From NCBI RefSeq assembly GCF_004798705.1, contig NZ_CP039290.1, positions 682,001 to 746,000 on the forward strand: a DNA stretch of 64,000 nt, read 5' to 3'. A program made the position numbers and the translations under genes. Position 1 is the stretch's first letter; every line of letters begins with the position of its first letter. The DNA comes from Arthrobacter sp. PAMC25564 (GTDB taxonomy: Bacteria > Actinomycetota > Actinomycetes > Actinomycetales > Micrococcaceae). The notes beneath the pieces are model-generated. The model made no database searches and was not told where the DNA came from. It saw only the letters and a list, made by a program, of their open reading frames with translations. Of the stretch, positions 37,137 to 59,200 are shown in pieces.

Positions 37137-37151
37137 TCCTCTCAACCACCA

Positions 37152-37235: not shown

Positions 37236-37302
37236 GGAGGGCAAACCACAGCTCACAGCGGCGGACTGGCTCCGGCATAGCGTGCGGGGGTTCCATAGAG
37301 CC

Positions 37303-37731: not shown

Positions 37732-37778
37732 GTCTTGGTGCGCGAAGCCCAGGATCGGGCGGGGATAGACTCGGAGCC

Positions 37779-39148: not shown

Positions 39149-39209
39149 TGTGGATACCCACAAAGTTGACTCCAGCCGTCTGGTGGTGCCCCGGGAGCGG
39201 CCCTAACGT
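39149..39209 (+). promoter_or_regulatory. Promoter block of giant gene 1
   Basis: A TGTGG/CCACA palindrome (39149-39162) is followed by AAAGTTGACTCC and, 32 bases later, a probable -10 TAACGT (39204-39209). The whole arrangement is repeated before giant gene 2. TTGACT is too far from the -10 to be its -35, so the upstream block may be an activator site. Confidence 0.55.
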
Positions 39210-39421
39210 TCAAAGCGTATGGAAGCCCCGTAGGCAGGTGGTCCAGGTTCCGGACTGCCGCGGAGAGTCACCTCGACGTCTCCACCTGCAGCTGGCTTCA
39301 AGACAATTGGATAGCACCAAACAGCGGGACTCCGAGGTATCGGCGTCCTCGTCAGGCCAAGGTGGTGCAGACACCGCGGCCGCGCCCTTGAGTGATCGCG
39401 CCCCCGACCATGGAGTCCACC
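39210..39421 (+). promoter_or_regulatory. Conserved structured 5' leader of giant gene 1
   Basis: About 205 bases lie between the proposed start site and the ATG. Blocks GCGTATGGAAGCCCCG, CAGGTTCCGGACT, CCGCGGAGAGTCACCTCGAC and GTCTCCACCTGC are nearly identical in the leader of giant gene 2. GCAGGTGG (39234-39241) can pair with CCACCTGC (39282-39289), enclosing GTCC/GGAC (39241-39255). I could not match it to a known riboswitch. The remaining 39099-39148 shows nothing notable. Confidence 0.55.
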
Positions 39422-42400
39422 ATGAAGTCTGCACATGCCTTCTTGCCCCGCCGGATTGTCCGGCCGACAGTTTCCGCCGTGATTACGGCCCTCCTCGCCG
39501 CCACGTTGTCGGTCTTCGCAGTCCCGACGGCGAATGCGGCCGGACCGTGCACTGCCCCGATTGTGAGCAAGGTGGCCTGCGAAAATACCCAGCCGGGTAA
39601 CCCGGCCTCGGAGTGGCAGGTCACCGGCGCGGGCGACAGCACTATCCAGGGGTATGCGACGTCCATGAGCGTCAATGTCGGCGGCACCGTGAATTTCAAG
39701 GTCAAGACGCCGTCCACCTCATACCACATCGATGTGTACCGTCTTGGCTACTACCAGGGGCTGGGCGCCCGTAAGGTCGCTGCCAACGTGCTGCCGAGCG
39801 CCGTGCTTCCGCAGTCCCAGCCGGCGTGCGCCACTTTCTCCGCCACCGGGCTGATCGACTGCGGCAACTGGGGCATCTCGGCCACCTGGCAGGTCCCGAC
39901 TTCGGCCGTCTCTGGAGTTTACCTAGCCCGGCTGGTGCGCAATGACGCGACGGCCGCGAGCGTGATTCCTTTTGTCGTCCGCGACGACGCGGCCCACTCA
40001 GACGTCCTGTTCCAGACTTCGGATACCACGTGGCAGGCGTACAACACCTACGGCGGCAACAGCCTCTACTCGTGTACGGTGTCCTGCCCTCCGGGTAACC
40101 CGATGGCGTATAAGGCGGCGTTCAAGGTCTCGTACAACAGGCCTTTCAACTCCGCGGCGGACGACCAAGGACGAAGCTGGCTGATGTACGCCGAATATCC
40201 GATGATCCGATTCATGGAGGCCAACGGCTACGACGTGAGCTACATGAGCGGCCTGGACGTTGCCACCAAGGCTCCTTTGCTGTTGAACCACAAAGTGTTT
40301 ACGTCTGTGGGGCACGATGAATACTGGTCCGGGGACCAGCGGGCCAATGTCGAGGCCGCCCGGGACGCCGGCGTGCATCTGGCCTTCTTCAGCGGCAACG
40401 AAGCCTTCTGGCGCACCCGCTGGGAAGCCAGTGCCGACGGCACGAACACCCAAGGACGCACCCTGGTGGCCTACAAGGACACCCACTTCAACGCACCCAC
40501 CGATCCCGTGTCGTGGACCGGGACCTGGCGCGACCCCCGTTTCGGGACCGCCACGGGAGGAGGAAATCCTGAGAACGCCCTGACCGGACAGTTCTTCCTG
40601 GTCAACTCCGGTACCACCGATATCACTGTGCCCTCCGGTTTCAGCAAACTGCGGCTGTGGAGAAATACCACGATTGCCGGGCTGGCCTCGGGGGCCACGG
40701 CGACTTTGGGAGCGGGGTTGGGCACGCTCGGCTATGAATGGGACAGCGATTCGGACAATGGGTTCAGGCCTGCAGGGTCCTTTAAATTGTCGCAAACGAA
40801 CAGCACATCGGCGGAGGTCTTCACCGACTACGGATCCAGCACGATGAACGGCCAAGCCGCAACACATAACCTCACGATCTACAAGGCCGCAAGCGGCGCT
40901 TTGGTCTTCGGTGCCGGCACCGTGCAGTGGTCCTGGGGACTGGACGGCTTCACGACCGGTAAGGCGGTGGACAAGAATATGCAGCAGGCCACGGTCAATC
41001 TCTTCGCCGACATGGGGTCACAGCCGGTGACCATCATCTCTGGCCTGTCCGCTGCCCAGGCCTCAACGGATACTACTCCGCCGACGTCGGCCATCACCTC
41101 ACCAGCGGGGGGAGCCACCATAACCGATGGCACGGTGGTGACGGTCAGCGGCACCGCTGCCGACACCGGCGGAGTCGTTGCGGGCGTCGAGATTTCGACC
41201 GATGGCGGTAAGACGTGGCGTCCTGCCACCGGCACAACAAACTGGACCTTCAGCTGGAACGCGCATGGAAGTCCAACATCCACGTTACGGTCCCGTGCCG
41301 TTGACGACAGCGGGAACATCGAATCACCCGCCCCCGGTCTCGTAACGAACATTTCGTGCCCATGCTCACTGGTGGGCGTTCATACCGCACCGGCGGCCCC
41401 CGATTCCGGCGATGCCAATGGCGTTGAGGTCGGTGCGAAGTTCTACACGGACGTGGCCGGAACAATCAGCGCCCTACGGTTTTACAAGGCCGCCAAGAAC
41501 ACCGGCACGCACATCGGAAACATCTGGAGCATGTCCGGGCAACGCCTGGCCACCGCCACGTTCAGCGGTGAATCCTCCAGCGGTTGGCAGACCGTCACCC
41601 TCTCTCCGGCTCTGGCGGTAACCGCCAACACCATGTACGTGGTCTCGTACTATGCGCCTGCCGGCCACTATTCCCAGGACTCGGGATTCTTCTATAACCA
41701 CCCCTCCGGACCGCCTGCGGGAAATAACAGTACCGACAGCGCCCCGTTGCATTTCACCCGCAGTCTGCCGGGCACTCCCAACGGTTTCTACCGCTACGGC
41801 AGCTCGTCCACCTTCCCCAACCAGATCTACGACGCGGAATACTACTGGGTGGACGCCGTCTTTAGCCCGTCGGCTCCGGCGGCGCCGGCGGTGTCGTCGG
41901 TGTCTCCGGTGAATGCGGCGACGGGTGTGGCGGTGTCCGTGAAGCCTGCTGCGACGTTCAATCAGTCGGTGACTGGCTCGTCGGTGGTGTTCACGGTGAA
42001 GGACAGCGGCGGTGCTGCGGTGGCGGGGACGGTTGCGTATGATGCGGCGGGCAACACGGCGACGTTTACTCCGGGGAGCGCCCTGGCGTACGGCATCACG
42101 TACACGGCGACGGTCAGCGGTGCCACGAACAGCACGGGTCAGGTGATGGCGGCTCCGTATTCGTGGTTGTTCACCACGGCCGCGGCTCCGACGGCGCCGG
42201 CTGTGTCGTCGGTGTCTCCGGTGAATGCGGCGACGGGTGTGGCGGTGTCCGTGAAGCCTGCTGCGACGTTCAATCAGTCGGTGACTGGCTCGTCGGTGGT
42301 GTTCACGGTGAAGGACAGCGGCGGTGCTGCGGTGGCGGGGACGGTTGCGTATGATGCGGCGGGCAACACGGCGACGTTTACTCCGGGGAGCGCCCTGGCG

Positions 42401-44107
42401 TACGGCATCACGTACACGGCGACGGTCAGCGGTGCCACGAACAGCACGGGTCAGGTGATGGCGGCTCCGTATTCGTGGTTGTTCACCACGGCCGCGGCTC
42501 CGACGGCGCCGGCTGTGTCGTCGGTGTCTCCGGTGAATGCGGCGACGGGTGTGGCGGTGTCCGTGAAGCCTGCTGCGACGTTCAATCAGTCGGTGACTGG
42601 CTCGTCGGTGGTGTTCACGGTGAAGGACAGCGGCGGTGCTGCGGTGGCGGGGACGGTTGCGTATGATGCGGCGGGCAACACGGCGACGTTTACTCCGGGG
42701 AGCGCCCTGGCGTACGGCATCACGTACACGGCGACGGTCAGCGGTGCCACGAACAGCACGGGTCAGGTGATGGCGGCTCCGTATTCGTGGTTGTTCACCA
42801 CGGCCGCGGCTCCGGCCGGATGCCCCTGCAGCGTGTTCAGTTCGACTTCGGTGCCGTCCACCGTCACAGTCAACGACTCCAATGCCGTGGAGTTGGGGAT
42901 GAAGTTCCGTTCCGACGTGGCAGGGACTGTCACGGGTGTCCGGTTCTACAAGGGAAGTAGCAATACCGGGACCCATACGGGCCATTTGTGGTCCGCTTCC
43001 GGGACGCTGCTGGCCTCGGTGACGTTCGCGGGTGAGTCCGCCTCGGGCTGGCAGCAGGCCTCCTTCTCGAGCCCGGTGGCCATCACGGCCAACACCACGT
43101 ACGTGGTTTCGTACCAGGCGCCGAACGGGTTCTATTCCGCCAACGGAGGCTACTTCGGCAGTGCCGCGGACAACGCGCCGCTGCATGGCCTGGCCAGCGG
43201 GACCGACGGCCTTAACGGCGTCTACCGGTACGGCTCCACTGCCTTCCCCAGCGACAGCTACAACAACGCCAACTACTGGGTCGACGTCATCTTCGCCACG
43301 AATTCGAATGCGGCGCCGGCGGTGTCGTCGGTGTCTCCGGTGAATGCGGCGACGGGTGTGGCGGTGTCCGTGAAGCCTGCTGCGACGTTCAATCAGTCGG
43401 TGACTGGCTCGTCGGTGGTGTTCACGGTGAAGGACAGCGGCGGTGCTGCGGTGGCGGGGACGGTTGCGTATGATGCGGCGGGCAACACGGCGACGTTTAC
43501 TCCGGGGAGCGCCCTGGCGTACGGCATCACGTACACGGCGACGGTCAGCGGTGCCACGAACAGCACGGGTCAGGTGATGGCGGCTCCGTATTCGTGGTTG
43601 TTCACCACGGCCGCGGCTCCGGCCGGATGCCCCTGCAGCGTGTTCAGTTCGACTTCGGTGCCGTCCACCGTCACAGTCAACGACTCCAATGCCGTGGAGT
43701 TGGGGATGAAGTTCCGTTCCGACGTGGCAGGGACTGTCACGGGTGTCCGGTTCTACAAGGGAAGTAGCAATACCGGGACCCATACGGGCCATTTGTGGTC
43801 CGCTTCCGGGACGCTGCTGGCCTCGGTGACGTTCGCGGGTGAGTCCGCCTCGGGCTGGCAGCAGGCCTCCTTCTCGAGCCCGGTGGCCATCACGGCCAAC
43901 ACCACGTACGTGGTTTCGTACCAGGCGCCGAACGGGTTCTATTCCGCCAACGGAGGCTACTTCGGCAGTGCCGCGGACAACGCGCCGCTGCATGGCCTGG
44001 CCAGCGGGACCGACGGCCTTAACGGCGTCTACCGGTACGGCTCCACTGCCTTCCCCAGCGACAGCTACAACAACGCCAACTACTGGGTCGACGTCATCTT
44101 TAGCTGA
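39422..44107 (+). CDS. Giant secreted protein 1: DMFase-beta-like domain, DUF4082 and Big_5 repeats
   Basis: 1561 aa. ATG 39422 is chosen because GGAG lies 6 bases upstream and the paralog starts at the matching codon. The signal peptide ends at about ANA-AGP (residue 38). Residues ~40-535 form an N,N-dimethylformamidase-beta-like domain (DMFA2_C) with YRLGYYQGLGARKVA and the hallmark SVGHDEYWSGDQR, then FFSGNEAFWRTRW. Next come a bacterial Ig-type domain (~547-645), DUF4082 (~645-817), three identical Big_5 domains (821-1132), DUF4082 (1133-1297), Big_5 (1298-1400) and DUF4082 (1401-1561). It has no membrane anchor, so it is exported to wall or medium. Amidase activity is unproven; binding or modifying the glycan encoded next door is inferred. 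Confidence 0.85.
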   Translation: MKSAHAFLPRRIVRPTVSAVITALLAATLSVFAVPTANAAGPCTAPIVSKVACENTQPGNPASEWQVTGAGDSTIQGYATSMSVNVGGTVNFKVKTPSTSYHIDVYRLGYYQGLGARKVAANVLPSAVLPQSQPACATFSATGLIDCGNWGISATWQVPTSAVSGVYLARLVRNDATAASVIPFVVRDDAAHSDVLFQTSDTTWQAYNTYGGNSLYSCTVSCPPGNPMAYKAAFKVSYNRPFNSAADDQGRSWLMYAEYPMIRFMEANGYDVSYMSGLDVATKAPLLLNHKVFTSVGHDEYWSGDQRANVEAARDAGVHLAFFSGNEAFWRTRWEASADGTNTQGRTLVAYKDTHFNAPTDPVSWTGTWRDPRFGTATGGGNPENALTGQFFLVNSGTTDITVPSGFSKLRLWRNTTIAGLASGATATLGAGLGTLGYEWDSDSDNGFRPAGSFKLSQTNSTSAEVFTDYGSSTMNGQAATHNLTIYKAASGALVFGAGTVQWSWGLDGFTTGKAVDKNMQQATVNLFADMGSQPVTIISGLSAAQASTDTTPPTSAITSPAGGATITDGTVVTVSGTAADTGGVVAGVEISTDGGKTWRPATGTTNWTFSWNAHGSPTSTLRSRAVDDSGNIESPAPGLVTNISCPCSLVGVHTAPAAPDSGDANGVEVGAKFYTDVAGTISALRFYKAAKNTGTHIGNIWSMSGQRLATATFSGESSSGWQTVTLSPALAVTANTMYVVSYYAPAGHYSQDSGFFYNHPSGPPAGNNSTDSAPLHFTRSLPGTPNGFYRYGSSSTFPNQIYDAEYYWVDAVFSPSAPAAPAVSSVSPVNAATGVAVSVKPAATFNQSVTGSSVVFTVKDSGGAAVAGTVAYDAAGNTATFTPGSALAYGITYTATVSGATNSTGQVMAAPYSWLFTTAAAPTAPAVSSVSPVNAATGVAVSVKPAATFNQSVTGSSVVFTVKDSGGAAVAGTVAYDAAGNTATFTPGSALAYGITYTATVSGATNSTGQVMAAPYSWLFTTAAAPTAPAVSSVSPVNAATGVAVSVKPAATFNQSVTGSSVVFTVKDSGGAAVAGTVAYDAAGNTATFTPGSALAYGITYTATVSGATNSTGQVMAAPYSWLFTTAAAPAGCPCSVFSSTSVPSTVTVNDSNAVELGMKFRSDVAGTVTGVRFYKGSSNTGTHTGHLWSASGTLLASVTFAGESASGWQQASFSSPVAITANTTYVVSYQAPNGFYSANGGYFGSAADNAPLHGLASGTDGLNGVYRYGSTAFPSDSYNNANYWVDVIFATNSNAAPAVSSVSPVNAATGVAVSVKPAATFNQSVTGSSVVFTVKDSGGAAVAGTVAYDAAGNTATFTPGSALAYGITYTATVSGATNSTGQVMAAPYSWLFTTAAAPAGCPCSVFSSTSVPSTVTVNDSNAVELGMKFRSDVAGTVTGVRFYKGSSNTGTHTGHLWSASGTLLASVTFAGESASGWQQASFSSPVAITANTTYVVSYQAPNGFYSANGGYFGSAADNAPLHGLASGTDGLNGVYRYGSTAFPSDSYNNANYWVDVIFS
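41881..42816 (+). repeat. Three tandem 312-bp repeats (Big_5 domains)
   Basis: Units start at 41881, 42193 and 42505 and are almost base-for-base identical; a fourth copy starts at 43312. Each encodes 104 residues beginning APAVSSVSPVNAATG and ending SWLFTTAAAP. Codons in the unit end in G or T (gcg, tcg, gtg, ggt) more than the C-rich codons of the flanking gene. Confidence 0.95.
42505..44107 (+). repeat. 807-bp repeat (Big_5 plus DUF4082), two copies
   Basis: 42505-43311 and 43312-44107 repeat the same Big_5-DUF4082 module with almost no differences; the GGCCGGATGC block is at 42814 and 43621, 807 bases apart. Confidence 0.93.
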
Positions 44108-44237
44108 CAATAGCCGGAGGCCTCGTACATCGAGGGAGTCCGGATGAGAACAGCTCCGAGTCCCCTCATGACCGCGGTTCCCAGGGTCCCTCTGCGATTG
44201 GACGCCGGACCCGCAAATTGCACATCCACATGGATCC

Positions 44238-44297
44238 TGCGGATACCCACAAAGTTGACTCCGACGCCCTGGCAGGGGTTCCGGGGGCGCTTAGAGT
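44238..44297 (+). promoter_or_regulatory. Promoter block of giant gene 2
   Basis: TGCGGATACCCACA (44238-44251), AAAGTTGACTCC and, 31 bases on, the -10-like TAGAGT (44292-44297) repeat the arrangement before giant gene 1. Conservation against a diverged background supports function. The preceding 44108-44237 shows only weak inverted repeats that might end the giant gene 1 transcript. Confidence 0.55.
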
Positions 44298-44506
44298 TCA
44301 AGGCGTATGGAAGCCCCGCAGGTTGGTGATTCAGGTTCCGGACTACCGCGGAGAGTCACCTCGACGTCTCCACCTGCGATCGGTTTGAAATAGCTGGATG
44401 GCGCATAACTGCAGGACTCCGGTTTGTCGGCGTCCTTGAGGGGCCAAGGCAGTACAGACGCCGCGGCTGCGCCCTTGAATGATCGCGCCTGAGTCGGGAG
44501 TACATC
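44298..44506 (+). promoter_or_regulatory. Conserved structured 5' leader of giant gene 2
   Basis: About 205 bases, aligned with the leader of giant gene 1. CGCAGGT (44317-44323) can pair with ACCTGCG (44372-44378), so the outer stem is kept although flanking bases changed. The inside block TCAGGTTCCGGACTACCGCG is almost unchanged. Further conserved islands (GGACTCCG, TCGGCGTCCT, GCGCCCTTGA) reach to the start codon. Confidence 0.55.
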
Positions 44507-47500
44507 GTGAAGTCCGCACACATCGTTTGGCCCCGCCGGTTGGTCCGGCCGACAGTTTACGCCGTGATTACGGCCTTGTTGGCTGCTGCCTTGTCTGTCT
44601 TCGCTGTTCCGGCGGCGGATGCGGCCGGACCGTGTACGGCACCGATCATGAGCAAAGTAGCCTGCGAAAACACCCAGCCCGGTAGCCCGGCGTCGGAGTG
44701 GCAGGTCACGGGGGCCGGCAGCAGCACAATCCAAGGCTATGCCACGTCCATGAGCGTCAATATCGGCGCCTCGATCGAGTTCAAGGTCAACACGCCGTCC
44801 ACTTCGTACCACATCGATGTCTACCGGTTGGGCTACTACCAGGGGATGGGCGCCCGCAAGGTCGCGGCGAACGTGCTGCCGAGCGCCGCCCTTCCGCAGA
44901 GCCAGCCGGCGTGTGCGACGTTCTCCGACACAGGTCTGATCGACTGCGGAAACTGGGGAGTTTCGGCCACTTGGCAGGTTCCGGATACCGCGGTTTCCGG
45001 CGTTTACCTGGCCCGGCTGGTACGCAATGACACTAGTGAAGCAAGCGTTGTTCCCTTTATCGTCCGCGATGACGCCGCGCATTCCGCCATGCTCTTCCAG
45101 ACCTCTGATGCCACGTGGCAGGCCTACAACACCTACGGCGGCAATAGCCTGTACAGCTGCACCGTGGCCTGCCCGGCGGGAGAACCACTCACATACAAAG
45201 CCGTGTTCAAGGTCTCGTACAACAGGCCTTTCAACTCCGCCGCGGACGACCAAGGTAGAAGCTGGCTGATGTACGCCGAGTACCCGATGATCCGTTTCAT
45301 GGAGGCCAACGGCTACGACGTCAGCTACATGAGCGGCGTCGACGTCTCCACCCGGGGCCCGTTGCTGCTGAATCACAAGGTCTTTATGTCAGTGGGCCAC
45401 GACGAATACTGGACAGGGGATCAACGGGCCAACGTGGAGGCTGCTCGCGACGCCGGCGTGAACCTGGCGTTCTTCAGCGGGAACGAAATGTTCTGGAAGA
45501 CACGGCTGGAACCAAGCTCCGACGGAACGAACACACCGGACAGGACTCTGGTGGCCTACAAAGACACGCACTTCAACGCACCCACCGATCCCGTGTCGTG
45601 GACCGGGACCTGGCGGGACCCGCGTTTTGGGACAACCGGTGGCGGGGGTAACCCGGAAAATTCCCTGACAGGCCAATTCTTCATGGTCAATTCCGGAACC
45701 ACCGACATCGTGGTCCCGGCAGCGTACAAACAGCTCAGGCTATGGCGGGGGACCTCGATTGCGAACTTGGCCGCCGGCGCCTCGGCCACCCTGGGGGCCG
45801 GAGTCGGCACCCTTGGCTACGAGTGGGACATCGACGCCGACAACGGGTTCCGGCCAGCTGGTTCGTTCAGGCTTTCCAACACAGTCAGTTCCTCGGCGGA
45901 AGTCTTCACAGACTACGGGTCCAGCACGATGAACGGCCAAGCCGCAACCCATAACCTCACGCTCTACAAGGCTCCCAGCGGTGCCCTCGTCTTCGGCGCC
46001 GGCACGGTGCAATGGTCCTGGGGGCTGGACGGCTTCACCACCGGAAAAGCAGCTGACAAGAATATGCAGCAAGCCACCGTCAACCTTCTTGCTGACATGG
46101 GCACGCAAGCTACGACGATCACGGCTGGCTTGGTGACCGCGTCGGCGTCGACAGACTCGACGGCTCCGACTTCCACCATCGTTTCGCCTACAGCAGGATC
46201 AACTGTTTCGGATGGCACGATTGTCACCGTGACGGGGACCGCCGCCGATGTGGGCGGCGTGGTTGCCGGCGTCGAGGTCTCGACGGATGGCGGTGCAACC
46301 TGGCGCCCGGCAACGGGCACCTCGAATTGGACCTTCAGTTGGAATGCGCACGGGAGCCCGACGTCTACTCTGCGTTCCCGGGCCGTTGATGACAGCGGCA
46401 ATATCGAATCGCCCACGGCCGGCAGGGTCACGAACGTGTCATGTCCGTGCTCCATGATCGGGACTAACGTCAGCCCGGCTGTTCCTGACGTCGGCGACGG
46501 CAGTGGAATCGAGGTCGGGGCCAAATTCTTCTCCGACGTCGCGGGAACCATCAGCGCCTTGCGGTTCTACAAGTCCGCCAAGAATACCGGCACCCACGTA
46601 GGCAGCGTCTGGAGCGAATCCGGGCAACGGCTTGCCACGGTCACTTTCAGTGGGGAATCGGCGACTGGCTGGCAGAGTGCCACCCTGTCTCCGCCTCTCG
46701 AGGTCACCGCAAATACGAATTACGTGGTGTCCTACTTTGCTCCGGCCGGTCACTATGCCCAAGACACCGCCTATTTCTACAACCATCCCTCGCCGGCACC
46801 CGCAGGGAACGGCAGCACGGGAGGCACGCCGCTTCACTTCACCCGGAGCGTGCCTGGCAGCCCGAACGGCTTCTACAGGTACGGCGAGTCGTCTTCATTC
46901 CCTGATCAGGTGTACGACGCAGAGTACTACTGGATGGACGCTGTCTTCAGCCCGTCGAGCAGCCCAGCACCGGCAATTTCATCGGTATCACCGTCCAACA
47001 ATGCGACAGGTGTCGATGTGGCGGCGAAGCCTTCCGGGACGTTTAATCAGGGCGTGACGGCGTCCTCGGTGGTGTTCACAGTGAAGGACATGGCAAACAC
47101 TGCGGTCCAGGGGACGGTGGCATACGACTTGGCCACGAACACGGCTACGTTCACCCCTGGGACGTCCCTGGCCTTCAGCACCAGCTACACGGCCACGGTG
47201 AGTGGTGCCACGAATTCCGCGGACCAGTCCATGGCGGCGCCGTATTCGTGGACGTTTACGACGGCCGCGCCGCCGGCGGCGCCGACGGTGGCGTCGGTGT
47301 CGCCAGCGAACGGCGCCGTTGGCGTCGACACAGGAGTGAAGCCGTCCATGACGTTTGATCAGGCGGTGACGGGGTCCTCGGTGGTGTTCACTGTGAAGGA
47401 TGCGGGGGGTGCTGTGGTGGCGGGTACTGCCGCGTATGACGCGGCGGCCAGGACCGCGACGTTTACTCCAGGTGCGGCCTTGAGCCCCGGGACCACCTAC

Positions 47501-49693
47501 ACTGCCACCGTCAGTGGGGCTGCCAACACCACGGGCCAGACCATGGCGGCGCCCTATTCGTGGACGTTCACCACGGCCGCTGTCGTCACCTGCCCGTGTA
47601 ATATTTTCAGCTCAAACTCCGTGCCAACAACTGTTTCCACCAATGATCCGAATGCCGTGGAGTTGGGGATGAAGTTCCGTTCGGATGTGGCGGGGACGGT
47701 CACGGGGGTCCGGTTTTACAAGGGCGGGGCGAACAGCGGAACCCATGTCGGGCATCTGTGGACGGCTACCGGGACGCTCCTGGCGTCGGTGACGTTCACG
47801 GGGGAAACGGACTCGGGCTGGCAGCAGGCGGCGTTCTCCACGCCGGTACCGATCTCGGCGAACACCACGTATGTGGTGTCCTACTACGCCCCGAACGGGT
47901 CGTACTCCGCTGACGGCGGCTACTTCAACAACGCGGCGGACACGGCGCCCTTGCATGGCCTCGCGTCGGGCACCGACGGATCCAACGGCGTCTACCGGTA
48001 TGGCACCTCCACGGCGTTCCCCACCGACAGCTACAACAGCACCAACTACTGGGTCGACGTCGTTCTCGCCACCACGGCCCCGAACACGGCGCCTGTTGTT
48101 TCCTCGGTGTCGCCGGCGGACAGTGCTTCGGCTGTCGATGTGGCGGCGAAGCCTGCTGCGACGTTTGATCAGGCGGTGACGGGGTCCTCGGTGGTGTTCA
48201 CTGTGAAGGATGCGGGGGGTGCTGTGGTGGCGGGTACTGCCGCGTATGACGCGGCGGCCAGGACCGCGACGTTTACTCCCGGGAGTGCTCTGGCGTTCAG
48301 CACCAGATATGGGGTCACGGTCAACGGTGCGACGAATGTGACGGGGCAGACCATGGCGCCCTATTCGTGGACGTTCACCACGGCGGCGGCTCCGTCATCG
48401 TGTCCGTGCACCGTGTTCAATCCGACGTCGGTGCCTGCGACCCTGGTAGCCAATGATCCGAATGCCGTGGAGTTGGGGATGAAGTTCCGTTCGGATGTGG
48501 CGGGGACGGTCACGGGGGTCCGGTTTTACAAGGGCGGGGCGAACAGCGGAACCCATGTCGGGCATCTGTGGACGGCTACCGGGACGCTCCTGGCGTCGGT
48601 GACGTTCACGGGGGAAACGGACTCGGGCTGGCAGCAGGCGGCGTTCTCCACGCCGGTACCGATCTCGGCGAACACCACGTATGTGGTGTCCTACTACGCC
48701 CCGAACGGGTCGTACTCCGCTGACGGCGGCTACTTCAACAACGCGGCGGACACGGCGCCCTTGCATGGCCTCGCGTCGGGCACCGACGGATCCAACGGCG
48801 TCTACCGGTATGGCACCTCCACGGCGTTCCCCACCGACAGCTACAACAGCACCAACTACTGGGTCGACGTCGTTCTCGCCACCACGGCCCCGAACACGGC
48901 GCCTGTTGTTTCCTCGGTGTCGCCGGCGGACAGTGCTTCGGCTGTCGATGTGGCGGCGAAGCCTGCTGCGACGTTTGATCAGGCGGTGACGGGGTCCTCG
49001 GTGGTGTTCACTGTGAAGGATGCGGGGGGTGCTGTGGTGGCGGGTACTGCCGCGTATGACGCGGCGGCCAGGACCGCGACGTTTACTCCCGGGAGTGCTC
49101 TGGCGTTCAGCACCAGATATGGGGTCACGGTCAACGGTGCGACGAATGTGACGGGGCAGACCATGGCGCCCTATTCGTGGACGTTCACCACGGCGGCGGC
49201 TCCGTCATCGTGTCCGTGCACCGTGTTCAATCCGACGTCGGTGCCTGCGACCCTGGTAGCCAATGATCCGAATGCCGTGGAGTTGGGGATGAAGTTCCGT
49301 TCGGATGTGGCGGGGACGGTCACGGGGGTCCGGTTTTACAAGGGCGGGGCGAACAGCGGAACCCATGTCGGGCATCTGTGGACGGCTACCGGGACGCTCC
49401 TGGCGTCGGTGACGTTCACGGGGGAAACGGACTCGGGCTGGCAGCAGGCGGCGTTCTCCACGCCGGTACCGATCTCGGCGAACACCACGTATGTGGTGTC
49501 CTACTACGCCCCGAACGGGTCGTACTCCGCTGACGGCGGCTACTTCAACAACGCGGCGGACACGGCGCCCTTGCATGGCCTCGCGTCGGGCACCGACGGA
49601 TCCAACGGCGTCTACCGGTATGGCACCTCCACGGCGTTCCCCACCGACAGCTACAACAGCACCAACTACTGGGTCGACGTCGTCGTCAGATAA
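44507..49693 (+). CDS. Giant secreted protein 2: paralog with four DUF4082 and four Big_5 domains
   Basis: 1728 aa, GTG start with GGGAG 6 bases upstream. The signal peptide (VITALLAAALSVFAVPAADA) and the first ~640 residues closely match giant protein 1, including YRLGYYQGMGARKVA, SVGHDEYWTGDQR and FFSGNEMFWKTR. Then follow DUF4082 (~645-818), two divergent Big_5 domains (~820-1028), DUF4082 (~1029-1193), Big_5, DUF4082, Big_5 and DUF4082 to the end. The last part is a 810-base tandem repeat. It is followed after 28 bases by the glycoside hydrolase gene and so heads the plus-strand glycan operon. Catalytic role unknown; the repeats likely act as spacer and carbohydrate- or wall-binding stalk. 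Confidence 0.85.
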   Translation: MKSAHIVWPRRLVRPTVYAVITALLAAALSVFAVPAADAAGPCTAPIMSKVACENTQPGSPASEWQVTGAGSSTIQGYATSMSVNIGASIEFKVNTPSTSYHIDVYRLGYYQGMGARKVAANVLPSAALPQSQPACATFSDTGLIDCGNWGVSATWQVPDTAVSGVYLARLVRNDTSEASVVPFIVRDDAAHSAMLFQTSDATWQAYNTYGGNSLYSCTVACPAGEPLTYKAVFKVSYNRPFNSAADDQGRSWLMYAEYPMIRFMEANGYDVSYMSGVDVSTRGPLLLNHKVFMSVGHDEYWTGDQRANVEAARDAGVNLAFFSGNEMFWKTRLEPSSDGTNTPDRTLVAYKDTHFNAPTDPVSWTGTWRDPRFGTTGGGGNPENSLTGQFFMVNSGTTDIVVPAAYKQLRLWRGTSIANLAAGASATLGAGVGTLGYEWDIDADNGFRPAGSFRLSNTVSSSAEVFTDYGSSTMNGQAATHNLTLYKAPSGALVFGAGTVQWSWGLDGFTTGKAADKNMQQATVNLLADMGTQATTITAGLVTASASTDSTAPTSTIVSPTAGSTVSDGTIVTVTGTAADVGGVVAGVEVSTDGGATWRPATGTSNWTFSWNAHGSPTSTLRSRAVDDSGNIESPTAGRVTNVSCPCSMIGTNVSPAVPDVGDGSGIEVGAKFFSDVAGTISALRFYKSAKNTGTHVGSVWSESGQRLATVTFSGESATGWQSATLSPPLEVTANTNYVVSYFAPAGHYAQDTAYFYNHPSPAPAGNGSTGGTPLHFTRSVPGSPNGFYRYGESSSFPDQVYDAEYYWMDAVFSPSSSPAPAISSVSPSNNATGVDVAAKPSGTFNQGVTASSVVFTVKDMANTAVQGTVAYDLATNTATFTPGTSLAFSTSYTATVSGATNSADQSMAAPYSWTFTTAAPPAAPTVASVSPANGAVGVDTGVKPSMTFDQAVTGSSVVFTVKDAGGAVVAGTAAYDAAARTATFTPGAALSPGTTYTATVSGAANTTGQTMAAPYSWTFTTAAVVTCPCNIFSSNSVPTTVSTNDPNAVELGMKFRSDVAGTVTGVRFYKGGANSGTHVGHLWTATGTLLASVTFTGETDSGWQQAAFSTPVPISANTTYVVSYYAPNGSYSADGGYFNNAADTAPLHGLASGTDGSNGVYRYGTSTAFPTDSYNSTNYWVDVVLATTAPNTAPVVSSVSPADSASAVDVAAKPAATFDQAVTGSSVVFTVKDAGGAVVAGTAAYDAAARTATFTPGSALAFSTRYGVTVNGATNVTGQTMAPYSWTFTTAAAPSSCPCTVFNPTSVPATLVANDPNAVELGMKFRSDVAGTVTGVRFYKGGANSGTHVGHLWTATGTLLASVTFTGETDSGWQQAAFSTPVPISANTTYVVSYYAPNGSYSADGGYFNNAADTAPLHGLASGTDGSNGVYRYGTSTAFPTDSYNSTNYWVDVVLATTAPNTAPVVSSVSPADSASAVDVAAKPAATFDQAVTGSSVVFTVKDAGGAVVAGTAAYDAAARTATFTPGSALAFSTRYGVTVNGATNVTGQTMAPYSWTFTTAAAPSSCPCTVFNPTSVPATLVANDPNAVELGMKFRSDVAGTVTGVRFYKGGANSGTHVGHLWTATGTLLASVTFTGETDSGWQQAAFSTPVPISANTTYVVSYYAPNGSYSADGGYFNNAADTAPLHGLASGTDGSNGVYRYGTSTAFPTDSYNSTNYWVDVVVR
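47640..49693 (+). repeat. 810-bp tandem repeats (DUF4082 plus Big_5), about 2.5 copies
   Basis: Matching points at 47645, 48455 and 49265 are 810 bases apart, as are 48091 and 48901. Long stretches are identical between copies, pointing to recent duplication or gene conversion. Confidence 0.93.
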
Positions 49694-49721: not shown

Positions 49722-51167
49722 ATGAGAGCCGTTGGACGCTTCGGGGCGGCTGTGGTCGTCGGGTGCCTGGCGCTGATTACCGCGTGTTCCGGCAGCGTCG
49801 CAGACGCTCGGCGGGACGTTGCGTCCCAGCAAGCGCCCGGCGGCCCGGCAGTGCAGCCGGACAGCCCCAGCCCCGACGGTCCGGAGCGTTTCCAGACGGT
49901 CTCAGGCCTGGGGGTTAATGCGAACGTGCACAGCTGGGACAACGGCCGGCTCCGGCCGGCGATCGACATGATTGCCGATCTGGGCGAGGTCAGCTGGCGC
50001 GTGATCATCGACAAGGCCGACTGGGTGGCGGAAAGGGACCCGTCTGATCCAGCCACCATTGATTGGTCCCGCTACACACCCATTTATGAACGCGGCAAGA
50101 TGGCCGATTTGTGGAACACCATCGAGTACATCTCGTCCAAGCCCGGACAACAGGTCATGGTCAACGTTATGGGGGGCGTGCCGGAGTGGATGGGTGGCAA
50201 CCACATCGACCCGGCAGCCGAGGACCAGTGGGTCCGCATGATTGCTTCCATGGTCGCCTACGGACGGAATGTCCGGAGGCTGGACTTCACCTTGCTTAGC
50301 CCCATGAACGAGACCGACTGGAACGGGATCGAAGGACCCCATGTGGAGCCGGAGCAATATGTGAGGCTCCTCCACAAGCTTGTGGTCCGTCTGGACGGCC
50401 TGGGCCTTCGCGATATGCGGCTCGTCGGGCCGGACACGGCGTCCGCAGCCAAGGCCAGCTCCGAATACCTGAAGGCGCTGAACGCGGATTCCCTGGTCAT
50501 GTCCCGGATGGCGCATTTCGGGATCCACAGCTACGACGGTGGCTCCGGAGGCGCGGCGGAGGCGCTGGCCAAGTCCTCCCATCCTGGGCTGGACTACTGG
50601 GTGACCGAGTTCTCCGGCCCCTGTCCGGGCTGCGACACGGGGTCACCGAACCCTGCCGACTGGTCGTCTGCCGCGCAAACAGCTTCCCTGGCCATCAGAC
50701 TCCTCCAGGAGGGCGCCGCCGGGCTTATGCAATATGACGCCTGGGACGGCTATTACGAGCACCACGAAAGCACCGGCTACTGGGGACTTCTCGCCTATGA
50801 CTCCGAAAAGGGTACTTACAGTCCACGCAAAACGTACTACGTCCTCCGGCAATTGATCCGTTACGTGCCTCGCAATGCTGTCCGCATTGCGGCGTCGTCC
50901 AGTGAAGAAAGCGTCGAGATCGTGGCCTTCCAGGACCCCGCGTCAGGATGGGTGTCGGTTTTCGGACGGAACAGTTCCGACTCACCGGTGAAGGTGACGG
51001 TGCGGCTTGCGGGACTGAGCGGGACGATACGGCTTTCAATGTTCACCACCGATTCCGAGCGTGACATGGAGGCCGTCGAAGGCCCGCTAATGGCCGCGGG
51101 GATAACAAACCTGACGGCCCTACCGAACTCGGTTTTCACTCTGACCGGAAGTGCGACGAAAGGTTGA
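49722..51167 (+). CDS. Lipoprotein glycoside hydrolase (clan GH-A, GH30/39-like)
   Basis: 481 aa. The signal peptide has a lipobox (ALITAC, Cys22) followed by a Pro/Ser-rich tether, so it is anchored outside the membrane. The TIM-barrel core carries the acid/base motif LLSPMNETDWNG (Glu197) and the nucleophile motif DYWVTEFSGPC (Glu296), both in the positions expected for retaining clan GH-A enzymes. The C-terminal ~90 residues form a beta-sandwich. It probably trims or releases the locus polysaccharide; the exact linkage is unknown. The start is ATG 49722, 28 bases after giant gene 2; the stop overlaps a TTG before the next gene. Confidence 0.8.
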   Translation: MRAVGRFGAAVVVGCLALITACSGSVADARRDVASQQAPGGPAVQPDSPSPDGPERFQTVSGLGVNANVHSWDNGRLRPAIDMIADLGEVSWRVIIDKADWVAERDPSDPATIDWSRYTPIYERGKMADLWNTIEYISSKPGQQVMVNVMGGVPEWMGGNHIDPAAEDQWVRMIASMVAYGRNVRRLDFTLLSPMNETDWNGIEGPHVEPEQYVRLLHKLVVRLDGLGLRDMRLVGPDTASAAKASSEYLKALNADSLVMSRMAHFGIHSYDGGSGGAAEALAKSSHPGLDYWVTEFSGPCPGCDTGSPNPADWSSAAQTASLAIRLLQEGAAGLMQYDAWDGYYEHHESTGYWGLLAYDSEKGTYSPRKTYYVLRQLIRYVPRNAVRIAASSSEESVEIVAFQDPASGWVSVFGRNSSDSPVKVTVRLAGLSGTIRLSMFTTDSERDMEAVEGPLMAAGITNLTALPNSVFTLTGSATKG

Positions 51168-51172
51168 GCGAC

Positions 51173-52099
51173 ATGGATGTGTCTGATTCTTCGGGGTCCA
51201 ATGTGGATCATGTGCTGCTGACCCGTTTCAACCTGCCGACGGCGGGCAGGGAGAGCCAGGTCCGCGCGCAGGAGGGCTGGCTCAGGAACAGGGTTGACCT
51301 CTTCGAGCGATTCTGCCTGCCGTCTGTCCGGGCACAGACTTCGGGGGACTTCCGCTGGATTGTCTATTTCGATCCCGAGAGTCCGACATGGCTGAAGGAG
51401 AGGATCCCACAGCTGGCCGGCGATGGCGGCTTTGTGCCGATCTTCAGGGCGAGCGTCGACCACGATGAGCTGGTGGCGGATCTGATCAAGGTTGTGGGAA
51501 AACCGCGGAAACGATTGGTAACGACAAATCTTGACAATGATGATGGATTGGCCGTGGATTTTGGCGAAAGACTTCAAATGCAGGCCAGTATCCCGAGCGT
51601 CCGGACGGCGATTTATTTTTCCCGCGGCTTGATACTGGCCGGAAAAGACCTTTACTCACGAATCGACCGCCGAAATGCGTTTTGTTCAGTGGTCGAATCG
51701 TGGGAGGAGCCGGTCACTTGCTGGGCGGACTGGCACAATCTCCTCGGTAAAAGCATGCCTGTCCGGGAGATTGCTGGATCCCCGGCCTGGTTGCAGGTAG
51801 TTCACGGAGGGAATGTCAGCAATCGGGTTCGCGGAAGAATGGTTTCGTCCCTGCTTAATGTGAAAAATTTTCCGGTTATTCCACCCGATACCGGCTATCC
51901 TTCTGACAGAGAACTGCGCTGGGAAAACCTGGTGGTAGCTCCCGCTCGATATCTGGGCGAACATGGCAGATCGACAGTTAAATGCCTCATGATAATGGTC
52001 TTGGGCAAGGACGGTCTTAGCAGGGTCAAGGAAGTGCTGTCTGCCAGAAAGGCAGGCCCTGTAAGGGGGGAAGCGGATGCGGCTGAAGGAACTTATTAG
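51173..52099 (+). CDS. Putative rhamnosyltransferase (PF11316-like)
   Basis: A 308-aa soluble glycosyltransferase-like protein. The pattern HVLLTRFNLP, FERFCLPSVRAQTSGDFRWI and TTNLDNDDGLAVDF (a DxDD-like donor-site motif) matches the putative rhamnosyltransferase family. ATG 51173 has AAAGG 9 bases upstream; the TTG at 51164 overlaps the previous stop but lies too close to that site. Codon use from about 51500 to 51960 is distinctly richer in A and T than its neighbours. A paralog lies at 54852-55715 on the other strand. It overlaps the next gene by 23 bases. Confidence 0.75.
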   Translation: MDVSDSSGSNVDHVLLTRFNLPTAGRESQVRAQEGWLRNRVDLFERFCLPSVRAQTSGDFRWIVYFDPESPTWLKERIPQLAGDGGFVPIFRASVDHDELVADLIKVVGKPRKRLVTTNLDNDDGLAVDFGERLQMQASIPSVRTAIYFSRGLILAGKDLYSRIDRRNAFCSVVESWEEPVTCWADWHNLLGKSMPVREIAGSPAWLQVVHGGNVSNRVRGRMVSSLLNVKNFPVIPPDTGYPSDRELRWENLVVAPARYLGEHGRSTVKCLMIMVLGKDGLSRVKEVLSARKAGPVRGEADAAEGTY

Positions 52100-52865
52100 G
52101 AGCCTCGCAAGACGCTGGTACGTGGTGCTGGCCGGTCTCGTTCTGACCGCAGGTATGTGTTCTGTGGTGTACGTGAAGGTTCCGGCGACATATGAAGCCA
52201 GCGGCAGCCTCGTACTCATGCCTCCGTCGGCGACGGTGGGGGACACCGGTAACCCTTACCTCTACCTCGTCGGAATGTCGCAGGCACTTGACGTCCTGAC
52301 ACGACGGGCGAATGCAGCCGAGGTGCGAGATCCTGTCCTGAATCAGTTTCCGGGCATGACCTACAGCATCGACGCGGACCGATCCACGAGCGGGGCAATA
52401 GTTGTTGTGAAGGTTTCGGGCCCTGATCCAGGCGCAACGATGGGCGGCCTGAAAGCCGCCTTGGCCACAGTCCCGGCCACACTCAAGACCATGCAGGACG
52501 AACTTTCCGTCGCGGACTTCTCGAGGATTAACCTGAAGACGATAGTCGTGGCTCCCGAGCCAACCAGGGAGAACAAGGCCCAGCTTCAGCTCATGATCGT
52601 CGCCGCGGGAGTTGGCGTCATAGGCACTGTGCTGTTGGCCAGAATGCTGGACGGGCTGCTCCTTGCCAGAGGAATCGCGCGCAGAAACCTGGAGCGTCCG
52701 GCCCCTGGGCGCCCGGGCGGAACTCCAGACCCATCCCTGCGTCGACGGCAGTTGCGGTCTGGAGTGTCAAAGTCATCCCTGTCCCAGCCGCTCGCCCCGG
52801 ATCCGGGGGATGAGGATTCGGCCGAACCAACCGAGAAGACCGACGTTCGCGCCATGCTCCCATGA
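52077..52865 (+). CDS. Chain-length determinant-like membrane protein (Wzz/PCP), first copy
   Basis: 262 aa. A first membrane helix (WYVVLAGLVLTAGMCSVVYV) at residues ~14-33, an extracytoplasmic region with the YEASGSLVLMPPS start typical of polysaccharide co-polymerases, and a second helix (LMIVAAGVGVIGTVLLARML) at ~178-198, then a basic Pro-rich cytoplasmic tail. No Walker or tyrosine-kinase domain is fused. Such proteins set polymer length together with a Wzy polymerase, which is encoded two genes downstream. Its stop overlaps the next ATG (ATGA). Confidence 0.75.
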   Translation: MRLKELIRSLARRWYVVLAGLVLTAGMCSVVYVKVPATYEASGSLVLMPPSATVGDTGNPYLYLVGMSQALDVLTRRANAAEVRDPVLNQFPGMTYSIDADRSTSGAIVVVKVSGPDPGATMGGLKAALATVPATLKTMQDELSVADFSRINLKTIVVAPEPTRENKAQLQLMIVAAGVGVIGTVLLARMLDGLLLARGIARRNLERPAPGRPGGTPDPSLRRRQLRSGVSKSSLSQPLAPDPGDEDSAEPTEKTDVRAMLP

Positions 52866-53569
52866 CCATGGCCAAACTGCTCCGTCTATTGGGGCGACGC
52901 TGGTACGTGGTCATCGCGGGGGTTGCGTGCACGGCGCTTGCCTGTGCAGTTCTCATGCTCACGCCCCGCGCCTATGCGGCGCAGATGGATGTTGTTTTTG
53001 TCGTGCCAGGAGGGGTGGCGTCGTCGAGAACTGACGATGCGTTCGCGGAACCCCTGATAAATTTCACCAGCGTGGTGGCGGTAAGGACCAACGCGATACG
53101 GCCCTCCGTGAAGCTTTCCTCGCCGACGGCCGAGTTGTACGGACTCGGTGTCCGGGAAGGAGTGTCCGTCACGTTGGCTGATGCCGGTGGGCAGTGGGGA
53201 AGCATCTTCAATGCGCCCGTCATCCGGATCCAAGCGGTCGATTCCAGCCCCGAACGCGTGGCTGCTGCCTTGGATGAAGTCGTTGCCGACATTTCTTCGG
53301 CGTCGACTTCCATTCAAGATGAAAGTGGGGTCGCACGGAGTGCAAGGATCGGTATGGAGACCGTGCCTCTACGGCCGGAGGTCTTCGTCTACACCCGCAA
53401 TCGAACGAGTGAAGCCAAAGCCACTGCCGCGGCTTGGGTATTGGGCCTGAGCCTCACCGTCTGCGCAGCGGCCCTCTCTGACAGATGGGCACGATCACGT
53501 CGTCGCCGCTCGGAAAGGACGAGGCACCGTGCCACTGAAATTGCGCCGCAGTCCGCGGCCACAGCCTGA
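52862..53569 (+). CDS. Chain-length determinant-like membrane protein, second copy
   Basis: 235 aa with the same plan as its neighbour: helix WYVVIAGVACTALACAVLML, an extracytoplasmic domain of about 150 residues, a second helix (AAAWVLGLSLTVCAAALS) and a short Arg-rich tail. The N-terminus KLLRLLGRRWYVVIAG closely echoes KELIRSLARRWYVVLAG of the first copy, so the two arose by duplication and have since diverged. It also lacks a kinase. It overlaps the polymerase gene by 41 bases, implying coupled translation. Confidence 0.7.
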   Translation: MTMAKLLRLLGRRWYVVIAGVACTALACAVLMLTPRAYAAQMDVVFVVPGGVASSRTDDAFAEPLINFTSVVAVRTNAIRPSVKLSSPTAELYGLGVREGVSVTLADAGGQWGSIFNAPVIRIQAVDSSPERVAAALDEVVADISSASTSIQDESGVARSARIGMETVPLRPEVFVYTRNRTSEAKATAAAWVLGLSLTVCAAALSDRWARSRRRRSERTRHRATEIAPQSAATA

Positions 53570-54833
53570 GATTGACCAGGGGAGGCGTTCCGGATGGGAC
53601 GCTGCCTCATTTCTGACGGTCTACCTGGTGCTTGTCTGCGCGCTCCCGTCATACCTGACTATTCCGGTGCTGGGGTCAGCAGGCCGGCCCTCCACACTCT
53701 GGGGCCTGGTGGGCCTTCTCTGGTGGATCTGGAACAGGGTGGGGGTAGTTGTTCCTTATAAGGGAGGTTCCGGAGTTATCCGGACGGCCTTGCTGGTGTT
53801 CGTCGGGTGTGTTCTGGCCAGCTATGCGTATGCAAACTTCCGTGGCCTGCCGGGTTCGGAATCGAGTCCGGCCGACAGCGGAATGCTGCGGCTGGCGGGA
53901 TGGGTCGGCATTGCTTTGATTGCCTCCGACGGAATCGAAACGCGAGAACGCCTGCAAACTTTGCTCCGGCGCGTCGTGATGGCGGGCGCCCTGATGGCCT
54001 CATTGGGACTCGCCCAGTTCTGGACGGGAGAATCATTAATCGAATGGATCTCTTTGCCTGGGTTTGCCGTGGATTCCTCCCTTTCCGGAGTCGAGGGCCG
54101 AGGAGGGTTCATCAGGCCGCAAGGAACGGCGGCCCACCCGCTGGAATATGGGGTGGTGCTATGCATGTCACTGCCGCTTGCGATCTCTTTGGCCATGACC
54201 GAAACCAAACGCGGCATGTTGCTTCGATGGCTTCCGGTGTCGGTGATCATGTTCGCCTCCCTGCTTTCGGTCTCGCGCTCGGCACTTCTTGGCGTTCTCG
54301 CTGGCGTTCTGGTTCTTTTACCCCGCTGGCCGGCGCGAGTCCGTTTGTATGCCGTTGTTGCGGCAGTCGGTTTGGGTGTCATCATGTATTCGGTTGTCCC
54401 CGGCATGGCAGGAACGCTGAAGGGAATGTTCCTTGGCGTAGCCGATGATTCGAGCACGGTGTCGAGAACGAATTCATACGCCGCTGCTTTTGATATAGCT
54501 CAGCGGAGCCCGTTCGTGGGTCGGGGATTCAGCACTTTCCTGCCGCAGTATTTGATTCTTGATAATCAATTCTTGGGCTTGTTGATCGAGGTCGGCGTGC
54601 TGGGTCTCGCCGCATTCCTGGTTCTTGTGGCGATGTCAATCATCATTCCGTGGACTGCTACCCGCCGATCCACCGATGCAGGCCTCCGCCAGTTAGGCGC
54701 GGCGGTCTCCGCGTCCGTGGCGGCCGCTGCCCTGACGTTCGCATTCTTCGACGGTCTGGGCTTCCCAATGTCCGCAGGGCTGCTGTTCATGATGTTGGGG
54801 ATATCAGCTTCATTGGTGCGATCGGCGCGTTAG
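53529..54833 (+). CDS. O-antigen polymerase/ligase family protein (Wzy/WaaL-like)
   Basis: A 434-aa membrane protein with about 11 hydrophobic segments. The large outer loop includes GGFIRPQGTAAHPLEYG, the GT-xx-HP pattern of Wzy_C ligases and polymerases, and later SRSALLGVLAGVLVL and PFVGRGFSTFLPQYL. It would join undecaprenyl-linked repeat units or transfer the glycan outside the cell. The GTG start at 53529 lies inside the end of the PCP gene; a later start is possible. The gene ends 18 bases before the stop of the oppositely oriented operon. Confidence 0.8.
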   Translation: MPLKLRRSPRPQPEIDQGRRSGWDAASFLTVYLVLVCALPSYLTIPVLGSAGRPSTLWGLVGLLWWIWNRVGVVVPYKGGSGVIRTALLVFVGCVLASYAYANFRGLPGSESSPADSGMLRLAGWVGIALIASDGIETRERLQTLLRRVVMAGALMASLGLAQFWTGESLIEWISLPGFAVDSSLSGVEGRGGFIRPQGTAAHPLEYGVVLCMSLPLAISLAMTETKRGMLLRWLPVSVIMFASLLSVSRSALLGVLAGVLVLLPRWPARVRLYAVVAAVGLGVIMYSVVPGMAGTLKGMFLGVADDSSTVSRTNSYAAAFDIAQRSPFVGRGFSTFLPQYLILDNQFLGLLIEVGVLGLAAFLVLVAMSIIIPWTATRRSTDAGLRQLGAAVSASVAAAALTFAFFDGLGFPMSAGLLFMMLGISASLVRSAR

Positions 54834-54851
54834 CCGCGAATGTTGCAAGGC

Positions 54852-55715
54852 TCAGTTCCGGCTGATTCCCTTGGCGAACGTCGCCCGCCAAAGCTCGGTG
54901 ACTCGAGACGGCTTTCGCGCAATGCGCCAAAGAATACGGGCCGTTCCTTTGGAGACCTCTGTGAACAAGTCGACAAAACTGTCATTGAAGTCGAGGCCGC
55001 AGTTAAAGAATCGGGCAATACGATGCCCTGGGACCCGGAGTCCGACAATTTCATTCAGGACATTCCCGCCATGGATGACTTGGAGCCACATGGGATGTGC
55101 GGTGCGAATATTTCGCACCGGGCCGCGTTCATCGACGCGGTAATGATGTTCTACGAATACGGTCTCCGGCGCGGCCGTTCCTGCAGCCTCGACGAGGGAC
55201 AGGAAAGGATTCTTGGTGTATGGGCGCAAGTAGACCCTCCCGTCGGCATACTGGGCGCCGTTGACGAGGTTGATGAACTCGAAGTCCTGTCGTTGGAAGC
55301 AGTTCTGGATCGTTTGAACGAAGTCCCGTGCGACGGCGTCGTCGTTGTCCACCCTGGTTGTCAGAATGTAAGGGGCATCCGTTCGAGCCGCCACGGCTTT
55401 CGAAACGGTCTTCGAGGTGAATGCTCCGGAGACGAAAACTGTTTCGAATCTTCCCCGTGCATCCTTTTCGATTTCCTGCCGGAACCACTGCGGGCTTTGA
55501 TCATCAACGAAGACCAGCCATAGAAACTGTGCGGACGACTGGTCGGCCAACGCGGGTAAACAATACTGGCGGAACAGCCGCAACCGCTCGCGGAGCCACG
55601 CATCAGTCGGTTCGGACGCATGGTAGAACGAGCGCACGTTGAAGCGCGTAAGGACGAAATGAGACGCTTCGCCGCCGGCTATTTTGGGCGCTGTAGTGAG
55701 GTCACCGTTCAACAT
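54852..55715 (-). CDS. Putative rhamnosyltransferase (PF11316-like), paralog
   Basis: 287 aa from ATG 55715 (AGGAG 9 bases upstream; the GTG two codons earlier is too close to it). It shows HFVLTRFNVRSF, LFRQYCLPALADQSSAQFLW and TTRVDNDDAVARDF, the same family pattern as the gene at 51173, with the DNDD motif conserved. It is the last gene of the minus-strand operon and overlaps the preceding WsaF-like gene by 14 bases. Confidence 0.78.
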   Translation of the reverse strand: MLNGDLTTAPKIAGGEASHFVLTRFNVRSFYHASEPTDAWLRERLRLFRQYCLPALADQSSAQFLWLVFVDDQSPQWFRQEIEKDARGRFETVFVSGAFTSKTVSKAVAARTDAPYILTTRVDNDDAVARDFVQTIQNCFQRQDFEFINLVNGAQYADGRVYLRPYTKNPFLSLVEAAGTAAPETVFVEHHYRVDERGPVRNIRTAHPMWLQVIHGGNVLNEIVGLRVPGHRIARFFNCGLDFNDSFVDLFTEVSKGTARILWRIARKPSRVTELWRATFAKGISRN

Positions 55716-56967: not shown

Positions 56968-56968
56968 C

Positions 56969-58069: not shown

Positions 58070-58074
58070 TTTTC

Positions 58075-59190: not shown

Positions 59191-59200
59191 GATGTTCCTT

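Follow-up and report, generated by a model that had tools for sequence, protein, structure and literature searches.

PgaB, PelA and Agd3 are reported to be de-N-acetylases encoded for the polysaccharide that they modify (PMC5933820, PMC12022489, PMC7229062), PgaB and PelA also cleaving this polysaccharide (PMC5933820, PMC12022489) and Agd3 being the founder of carbohydrate esterase family CE18 (PMC7229062). The present analysis concerns two giant proteins, A and B, encoded in tandem by Arthrobacter sp. PAMC25564 in a 64-kb stretch of DNA (NZ_CP039290.1, positions 682,001–746,000), which is referred to as the window and provides the coordinates of this locus. PgaB and PelA are CE4-type enzymes; in contrast to A and B, all three de-N-acetylases belong to carbohydrate esterase families. 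We read A and B, with a probability of about 0.5, as exported, multidomain and metal-dependent amidohydrolases of the DMFA2_C family whose genes come first in an exopolysaccharide locus and which would N-deacylate its polymer; in that case they would presumably act in the manner of PgaB, PelA or Agd3, on another fold. By computation, the fold, the conserved site residues and the placement in glycan loci of several phyla were observed, together with a palindrome and leader RNA that are common to the enzyme genes and glycosyltransferase genes in the genus.

Of the relatives with solved structures, N-acetyl-(R)-beta-phenylalanine acylase (PDB 8huy, 8i59, 8i5a) matches best; it is about 21% identical to the proteins studied here, has an extra part (roughly residues 54–320) skipped by the alignment and, judging by its name, acts on a small molecule; a literature search for a paper on these structures found none. 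In N,N-dimethylformamidase (large subunit, PDB 6lvb), a small subunit is required, and the core fold is common to ThuA-like proteins of the glutamine-amidotransferase group (PMC7686228). Its large subunit carries a pentraxin-like domain II, the matching part of which is missing from A and B (the profile alignment to the dimethylformamidase chain jumps from about residue 40 to 330), whereas A and B possess a putative signal peptide (by-eye reading), a stalk and glycan-gene neighbours. In the open-licence literature, neither DUF4082 nor the dimethylformamidase beta subunit was found together with exopolysaccharide. Papers matching dimethylformamidase-like terms dealt with dimethylformamide-degrading Paracoccus and included a chemistry review; PMC4257694 describes a DUF4082 protein as predicted to be secreted, PMC10308929 mentions dimethylformamidase in another context, and the main text of PMC11801797 contains no occurrence of dimethylformamidase or DUF4082.

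Proteins A and B and their catalytic site

The initial annotation, made from the letters of the sequence, had described two tandem paralogs of 1561 and 1728 aa that combine a dimethylformamidase-like domain with stalks of DUF4082 and Big_5 modules. Both open reading frames were found at this place and in these sizes, and Pfam recognized the domains, with one Big_7 in each protein:

39422..44107, + strand, protein A, 1561 aa: putative signal peptide (by eye), DMFA2_C, Big_7, three DUF4082, four Big_5 (Pfam)
44507..49693, + strand, protein B, 1728 aa: putative signal peptide (by eye), DMFA2_C, Big_7, four DUF4082, four Big_5 (Pfam)

The ATG start of A at 39422 aligns with the GTG start of B at 44507, and the by-eye reading of both N-termini gives a Sec-type sequence with AxA. 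The match to DMFA2_C (PF20254, curated cut-off 27) reached 337.8 bits in A (E 1.4e-100) and 342.4 bits in B (E 5.4e-102). The DMFA2_C fold and a metal site around GHDEYW, which had been suggested for this domain, were both confirmed by profile searches of the PDB: the site aligned with that of the solved relatives, and the fold match to the dimethylformamidase/acylase group lay well above unrelated rows. With the catalytic region as a single sequence, a PDB search retrieved neither an acylase nor a dimethylformamidase; both were found by profiles alone.

Six residues of B (Y207, Y216, H298, E300, N326 and E439) align, at the level of sequence, with the Tyr, Tyr, Glu iron site and the catalytic His, Asn and Glu of N,N-dimethylformamidase. 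In 128 segments compared, each of them is conserved in 127 or in all 128, and nine short relatives of 28–33% identity likewise retain Y207, Y216 and N326, a sample taken from 20 retrieved loci by an HxEY motif in the longest open reading frame, so that H298 and E300 were preselected there. The alternative second tyrosine ligand, Y238, is replaced by Phe in eight of these nine relatives (the ninth also has Phe, in SFERP) and aligns elsewhere; Y216 was therefore taken as this ligand. Amide hydrolysis by A and B is likely, with Fe(III) as the metal by analogy. The family is large, with 4580 homologues at E 0.001 among 7994 candidates scored in one search. A match at E 1e-20 was present in 46 of 396 genomes of the phylum, the own genome included, and short relatives (about 550 aa) lacking the stalk occur in other Actinomycetota (loci L169–L188).

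Over 541 aa, the catalytic domains of A and B share 84.7% identity. G082 is the genome of the genus whose catalytic domain comes closest to theirs; a single gene occupies the corresponding place there, and over 541 aa it is 89.6% identical to B and 83.5% to A. No DMFA2_C match beyond A and B was found in the own genome. Four 300-nt Big_5 units of A (41880–43610) are identical DNA, which suggests that its stalk was recently amplified or homogenised by gene conversion. An 878-aa antisense open reading frame over A (41474–44110) is taken as a putative GC-rich artefact.

Palindrome and leader RNA

The DNA upstream of A matches that upstream of B at 79%, with an 82-nt block at 91%, and a search of the own genome with 296 nt of it gave 21 matches, only the A and B copies being convincing. 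A shared promoter had been proposed in the initial annotation; a search of the two leaders detected no sigma-70-like promoter, but a common palindrome and a covarying leader RNA were found:

39149..39162, no strand assigned, 14-bp palindrome TGYGGRTAYCCRCA upstream of A
39197..39367, + strand, structured leader RNA of A (model R2, 126 bits; training-set member)
44238..44251, no strand assigned, 14-bp palindrome upstream of B
44285..44454, + strand, structured leader RNA of B (model R2, 109 bits; training-set member)

The palindrome opens both leaders, as TGTGGATACCCACA at 39149 and TGCGGATACCCACA at 44238; its pattern has three sites in the 4.17-Mb own genome, the third of which lies inside an open reading frame and is taken as chance. 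The genus survey covered 150 genomes, 66 of which had an enzyme match (a few of them weak), and 40 enzyme places were retrieved from these 66: 21 loci of 66–90% identity (group A) and 19 of 54–58% identity (group B, L062–L080). All co-occurrence counts and P values given here and below ignore kinship. An exact palindrome stands 262–287 nt before the enzyme gene in 8/21 group A loci against 0/1000 random 600-nt windows, and with up to one mismatch (up to 290 nt) in 11/21 against 1/1000. In three further loci (L058–L060), it precedes a WecG-GT2 gene that itself lies upstream of the enzyme gene, and it was not found in the other 7 of the 21. Across 61 genus genomes, there were 37 palindrome sites, and the reversed control gave 20; it is thus chiefly the position of the palindrome that carries meaning.

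The common fold of 14 aligned leaders has 93.4% of its cells paired. Changes on both sides were seen in 16 of 36 pairs versus 8.5 in shuffles (0/500 as high) and at most 7 when slid, for a structure derived from the same alignment of related sequences that was then scored. When a piece of either leader was folded by itself, the result was unremarkable (z −0.94 and −1.37); the leader RNA signal comes from the alignment only. At the gathering cut-off of Rfam, neither leader matched; in E-value mode, there was none for A and one chance-level match for B, on the other strand (E 2.7), and these searches thus revealed no riboswitch of known type. The EAR element, a structured RNA of Bacillus eps operons, resembles the leader of A and B in being attached to an exopolysaccharide operon; a comparison through Rfam only gave no match between them.

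Covariance model R2 was built from 13 leaders, leaving out the L056 leader of the 14-leader alignment, which scored only 15.6 bits with it. Outside the training set, the model found leaders in L057–L060 (117–129 bits), where the WecG-GT2 gene begins, and in L086, where a second leader copy precedes a GT28-type glycosyltransferase gene. Among 44 sources, no match was obtained in group A loci L043, L049, L050, L052, L055 and L061 or in Sinomonas, Cryobacterium, Pedococcus, Actinoplanes and the remaining, more distant loci supplied, so the leader is confined to part of the genus. None was found in the group B enzyme loci, and nothing exceeded 14 bits in 65 control and other sources.

At a cut-off of 40 bits, below which two weaker matches fell (22.6 and 23.5 bits), a leader was present in 17 of 101 genus genomes. 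All 17 carry the enzyme (11 of group A and 6 of group B) against 43 of the 101 overall (P 5e-8), the 101 being assumed to be G000–G100 (62 not listed) and enzyme presence meaning a strong match in the genus survey. In the six group B genomes, the leader comes after an M18 aminopeptidase gene of the same type as the one upstream of A (37779–39098), with no enzyme gene in the retrieved stretch; it is followed by a WecG-GT2 fusion (L241, L244, L245, L246) or a GT28-type glycosyltransferase gene (L242, L243), and Wzx, Wzy or DegT genes come next. This placement before glycosyltransferase genes indicates that the leader belongs to the glycan locus, with the enzyme gene under it in group A. A second, weaker match (50 bits) in L243, by its coordinates just before the GT2 gene of the same locus, indicates that two leaders can occur within one locus. 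For group B enzymes, an action in trans on a polymer of the same kind is conceivable, with the proviso that these six genomes were chosen by their leader match and that the other 23 of the 101 genomes with a group B enzyme have none.

Glycan genes in the window and in other genomes

As the initial annotation had it, a glycoside hydrolase gene begins 28 bases past the stop codon of B. It is GH30-like by its match to AcXbh30A in the PDB (E 1.6e-7), two Pfam matches lying slightly under their cut-offs, and it opens the following row of genes:

49722..51167, + strand, GH30-like glycoside hydrolase with a lipoprotein-type N-terminus (PDB match; lipobox by eye)
51164..52099, + strand, putative rhamnosyl transferase (PF11316, E 5e-47)
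52077..52865, + strand, unclassified protein with relatives in related loci (no Pfam; profile matches in 33/123 loci)
52862..53569, + strand, unclassified protein with relatives in related loci (no Pfam; profile matches in 31/123 loci)
53529..54833, + strand, Wzy_C polymerase/ligase-type membrane protein (53.6 bits, cut-off 31.7)
54852..55721, − strand, second rhamnosyl-transferase-type gene (Rhamno_transf, E 2.9e-21)
55702..57246, − strand, WsaF-type glycosyltransferase
56969..58078, − strand, GT2 glycosyltransferase
58075..59352, − strand, DegT-family sugar aminotransferase (best NCBIfam relative PseC, below cut-off)
59201..60718, − strand, Wzx-type flippase (Polysacc_synt_3)
60688..61836, − strand, GT2 glycosyltransferase
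61770..62429, − strand, PglD/NeuD-type sugar acetyltransferase (TIGR03570, 166 bits, cut-off 160.8)

The Wzx, DegT, WsaF-type and both GT2 genes thus lie on the opposite, convergent strand relative to A and B. A plus-strand open reading frame at 54840–55523 is probably antisense to the minus-strand Rhamno_transf gene. Upstream of A (24650–39098), the window contains a two-component system, a PBP, ABC and MFS transporters and an amino-acid permease. Six Polysacc_synt_2 matches were found elsewhere in the own genome.

For the survey of other genomes, a locus was scored as having a glycan marker if it matched a glycosyltransferase, Wzx, Wzy, WecG, WsaF or Rhamno profile, or two or more amino-sugar profiles; epimerase matches did not count. 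Markers were present in 16 of the 21 group A loci, and four of the remaining five reach a contig end downstream, the fifth, L061, being a true exception. The wider set comprised the best 80 of at least 592 confirmed loci from six phyla, some of them from the same genomes as L041–L080, with Bacillota and Chloroflexi each represented by one marked locus (L101 and L160). Markers were found in 51 of these 80 loci, and in 40/56 loci of at least 20 kb compared to 2/40 random 20-kb regions (Fisher 1.3e-11), where the random regions came from 20 Actinomycetota genomes only and the neighbour profiles, iterated on the foreground loci, are biased in favour of these. Independently of the iterated profiles, with the background counted by Pfam in 39 whole genomes that cover 39 of the 80 loci, DegT lay inside the locus in 15 of the 39 against 1.62 expected (P 1.3e-11). 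The recurrent neighbours were Gfo/Idh/MocA, DegT, hexapeptide acyltransferase and epimerase genes; two or more amino-sugar markers occurred in 31 of the 80 loci.

The Gfo gene of the Rhizobium phaseoli locus comes closest, among NCBIfam families, to UDP-GlcNAc 3-dehydrogenase, though below the cut-off, and in this species the enzyme again forms a tandem pair, each copy being followed by a GTPase gene; the first GTPase resembles the zinc metallochaperone ZigA (565 bits, cut-off 600). The tandem pair recurs in R. leguminosarum with annotated type I secretion genes downstream. The record from Microvirga carries no annotation. CobW-type GTPase genes after Rhizobium DMFA2_C/DUF4082 genes were located at 17398–18579 and 24094–25326 of L195 (the second by annotation only) and at 19222–20406 of L083. 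An FAD-dependent oxidase gene stands directly upstream of the enzyme gene in L050 (Arthrobacter, 4493–5698; DAO, Pfam) and L085 (Pararhizobium, 12414–13622; annotated as L-2-hydroxyglutarate oxidase).

Candidate function and competing readings

The secretion read from the sequence, the intact amidase site, the adjoining N-acyl amino-sugar genes and the shared control together point to an extracellular N-deacylase of an exported polymer. The DMFA2_C domain would most likely cleave off, by hydrolysis, N-acyl groups (N-acetyl or N-formyl) from the amino sugars of a polymer that is presumably the product of the neighbouring Wzx/Wzy/glycosyltransferase genes, while the DUF4082/Big_5 stalk may hold the enzyme on this polymer or in the matrix; we infer both the polysaccharide of the own locus as substrate and the identity of the acyl group removed. 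Of the three roles that had been suggested (modifying, binding or anchoring the polymer), the intact catalytic site speaks for modification. Binding through the DUF4082 stalk is plausible by its fold only. By sequence, no relative of DUF4082 was found in the PDB with a useful E-value, and no sortase motif or membrane anchor was seen by eye at the C-terminus of A or B. If correct, this reading would introduce an extracellular amide-cutting enzyme on N-acylated polymers as a new chemistry of biofilm and capsule tailoring, a job outside the cell not yet described for the DMFA2_C amidase family, and would explain a large family annotated after a solvent-degrading enzyme, with a testable substrate. 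The leader RNA provides a direct handle on how such polymers are turned on. More tentatively, and at somewhat less than even odds, these proteins may represent a new class of extracellular polysaccharide N-deacylases with the iron-dependent dimethylformamidase/acylase fold in place of the carbohydrate-esterase folds known so far, spread over glycan loci of at least six phyla, the Arthrobacter type having a new, synthesis-linked palindrome-plus-leader-RNA control shared with glycosyltransferases.

Several observations weigh against N-deacylation of the locus polymer. The characterised dimethylformamidase needs its small subunit, and it prefers formamides and is inactive on acetamide (PMC7686228). 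The solved relatives are only about 21% identical, the candidate metal ligands Y207 and Y216 are assigned by alignment, and H298 and E300 were partly preselected in the wider set by the search pattern. The open-licence literature yielded no activity or function for DUF4082-bearing members, which is not proof of absence. In the own locus there is no Gfo/Idh/MocA gene, so the acylated sugar of its polymer is uncertain. The co-occurrence with glycan genes expected by the initial annotation held for the loci pooled from six phyla but not for 16 of the 56 long loci of the wider set, which lack a marker, nor for group B. Relatives without glycan genes, named there as the contrary case, thus exist as a 54–58%-identical subfamily with markers in 0/19 loci (epimerase matches in 6/19). 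This subfamily sits at a housekeeping site, near genes of mutM (17/19), smc (13/19), rnc (14) and coaD (17) type, as judged from clusters with Pfam names from L071 only. Additionally, the group A copy L061, the second copy in G089, lies near CTP-synthase and phage-integrase-type genes, and the copy on plasmid p232 of Arthrobacter sp. Rue61a lies beside copper and cytochrome genes, with no glycan support.

The locations at the housekeeping site and beside the copper and cytochrome genes would be expected if the enzyme served nutrition by acting on small external amides or N-acyl amino acids, the glycan neighbours reflecting a common variable region, and the known relatives do act on small amides; however, the long stalks with polymer-binding-like folds, the recurrence in glycan loci of six phyla and the leader RNA in common with glycosyltransferase genes make this an unlikely account. 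Similarly unlikely is the cleavage of another bond of the same polymer or matrix, such as a uronamide, an amino-acid amide on uronic acid or a peptide-like cross-link. The ThuA-like core fold (PMC7686228), a site that is amide-cleaving in relatives and the WecC-type uronic-acid genes matched in 6/123 loci are consistent with it, whereas the N-acetyl acylase name of the best-matching solved relative and the recurrent amino-sugar genes (31/80 loci with at least two markers) argue for N-deacylation. That A and B are mainly matrix adhesins or lectin-like scaffolds using the enzyme domain for binding is improbable, given that each of the six site residues is conserved in at least 127 of the 128 segments and that Y207, Y216 and N326 persist in the nine short relatives of 28–33% identity.

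At the far edge of the glycan locus, a large AAA_16/LuxR-type regulator gene (62968–64000) runs past the window end and is a possible controller of this locus. The ALIL pseudoknot, a frameshift element typical of IS3-family insertion sequences, was detected on the minus strand at 2684–2799 (RF01497, 94 bits).

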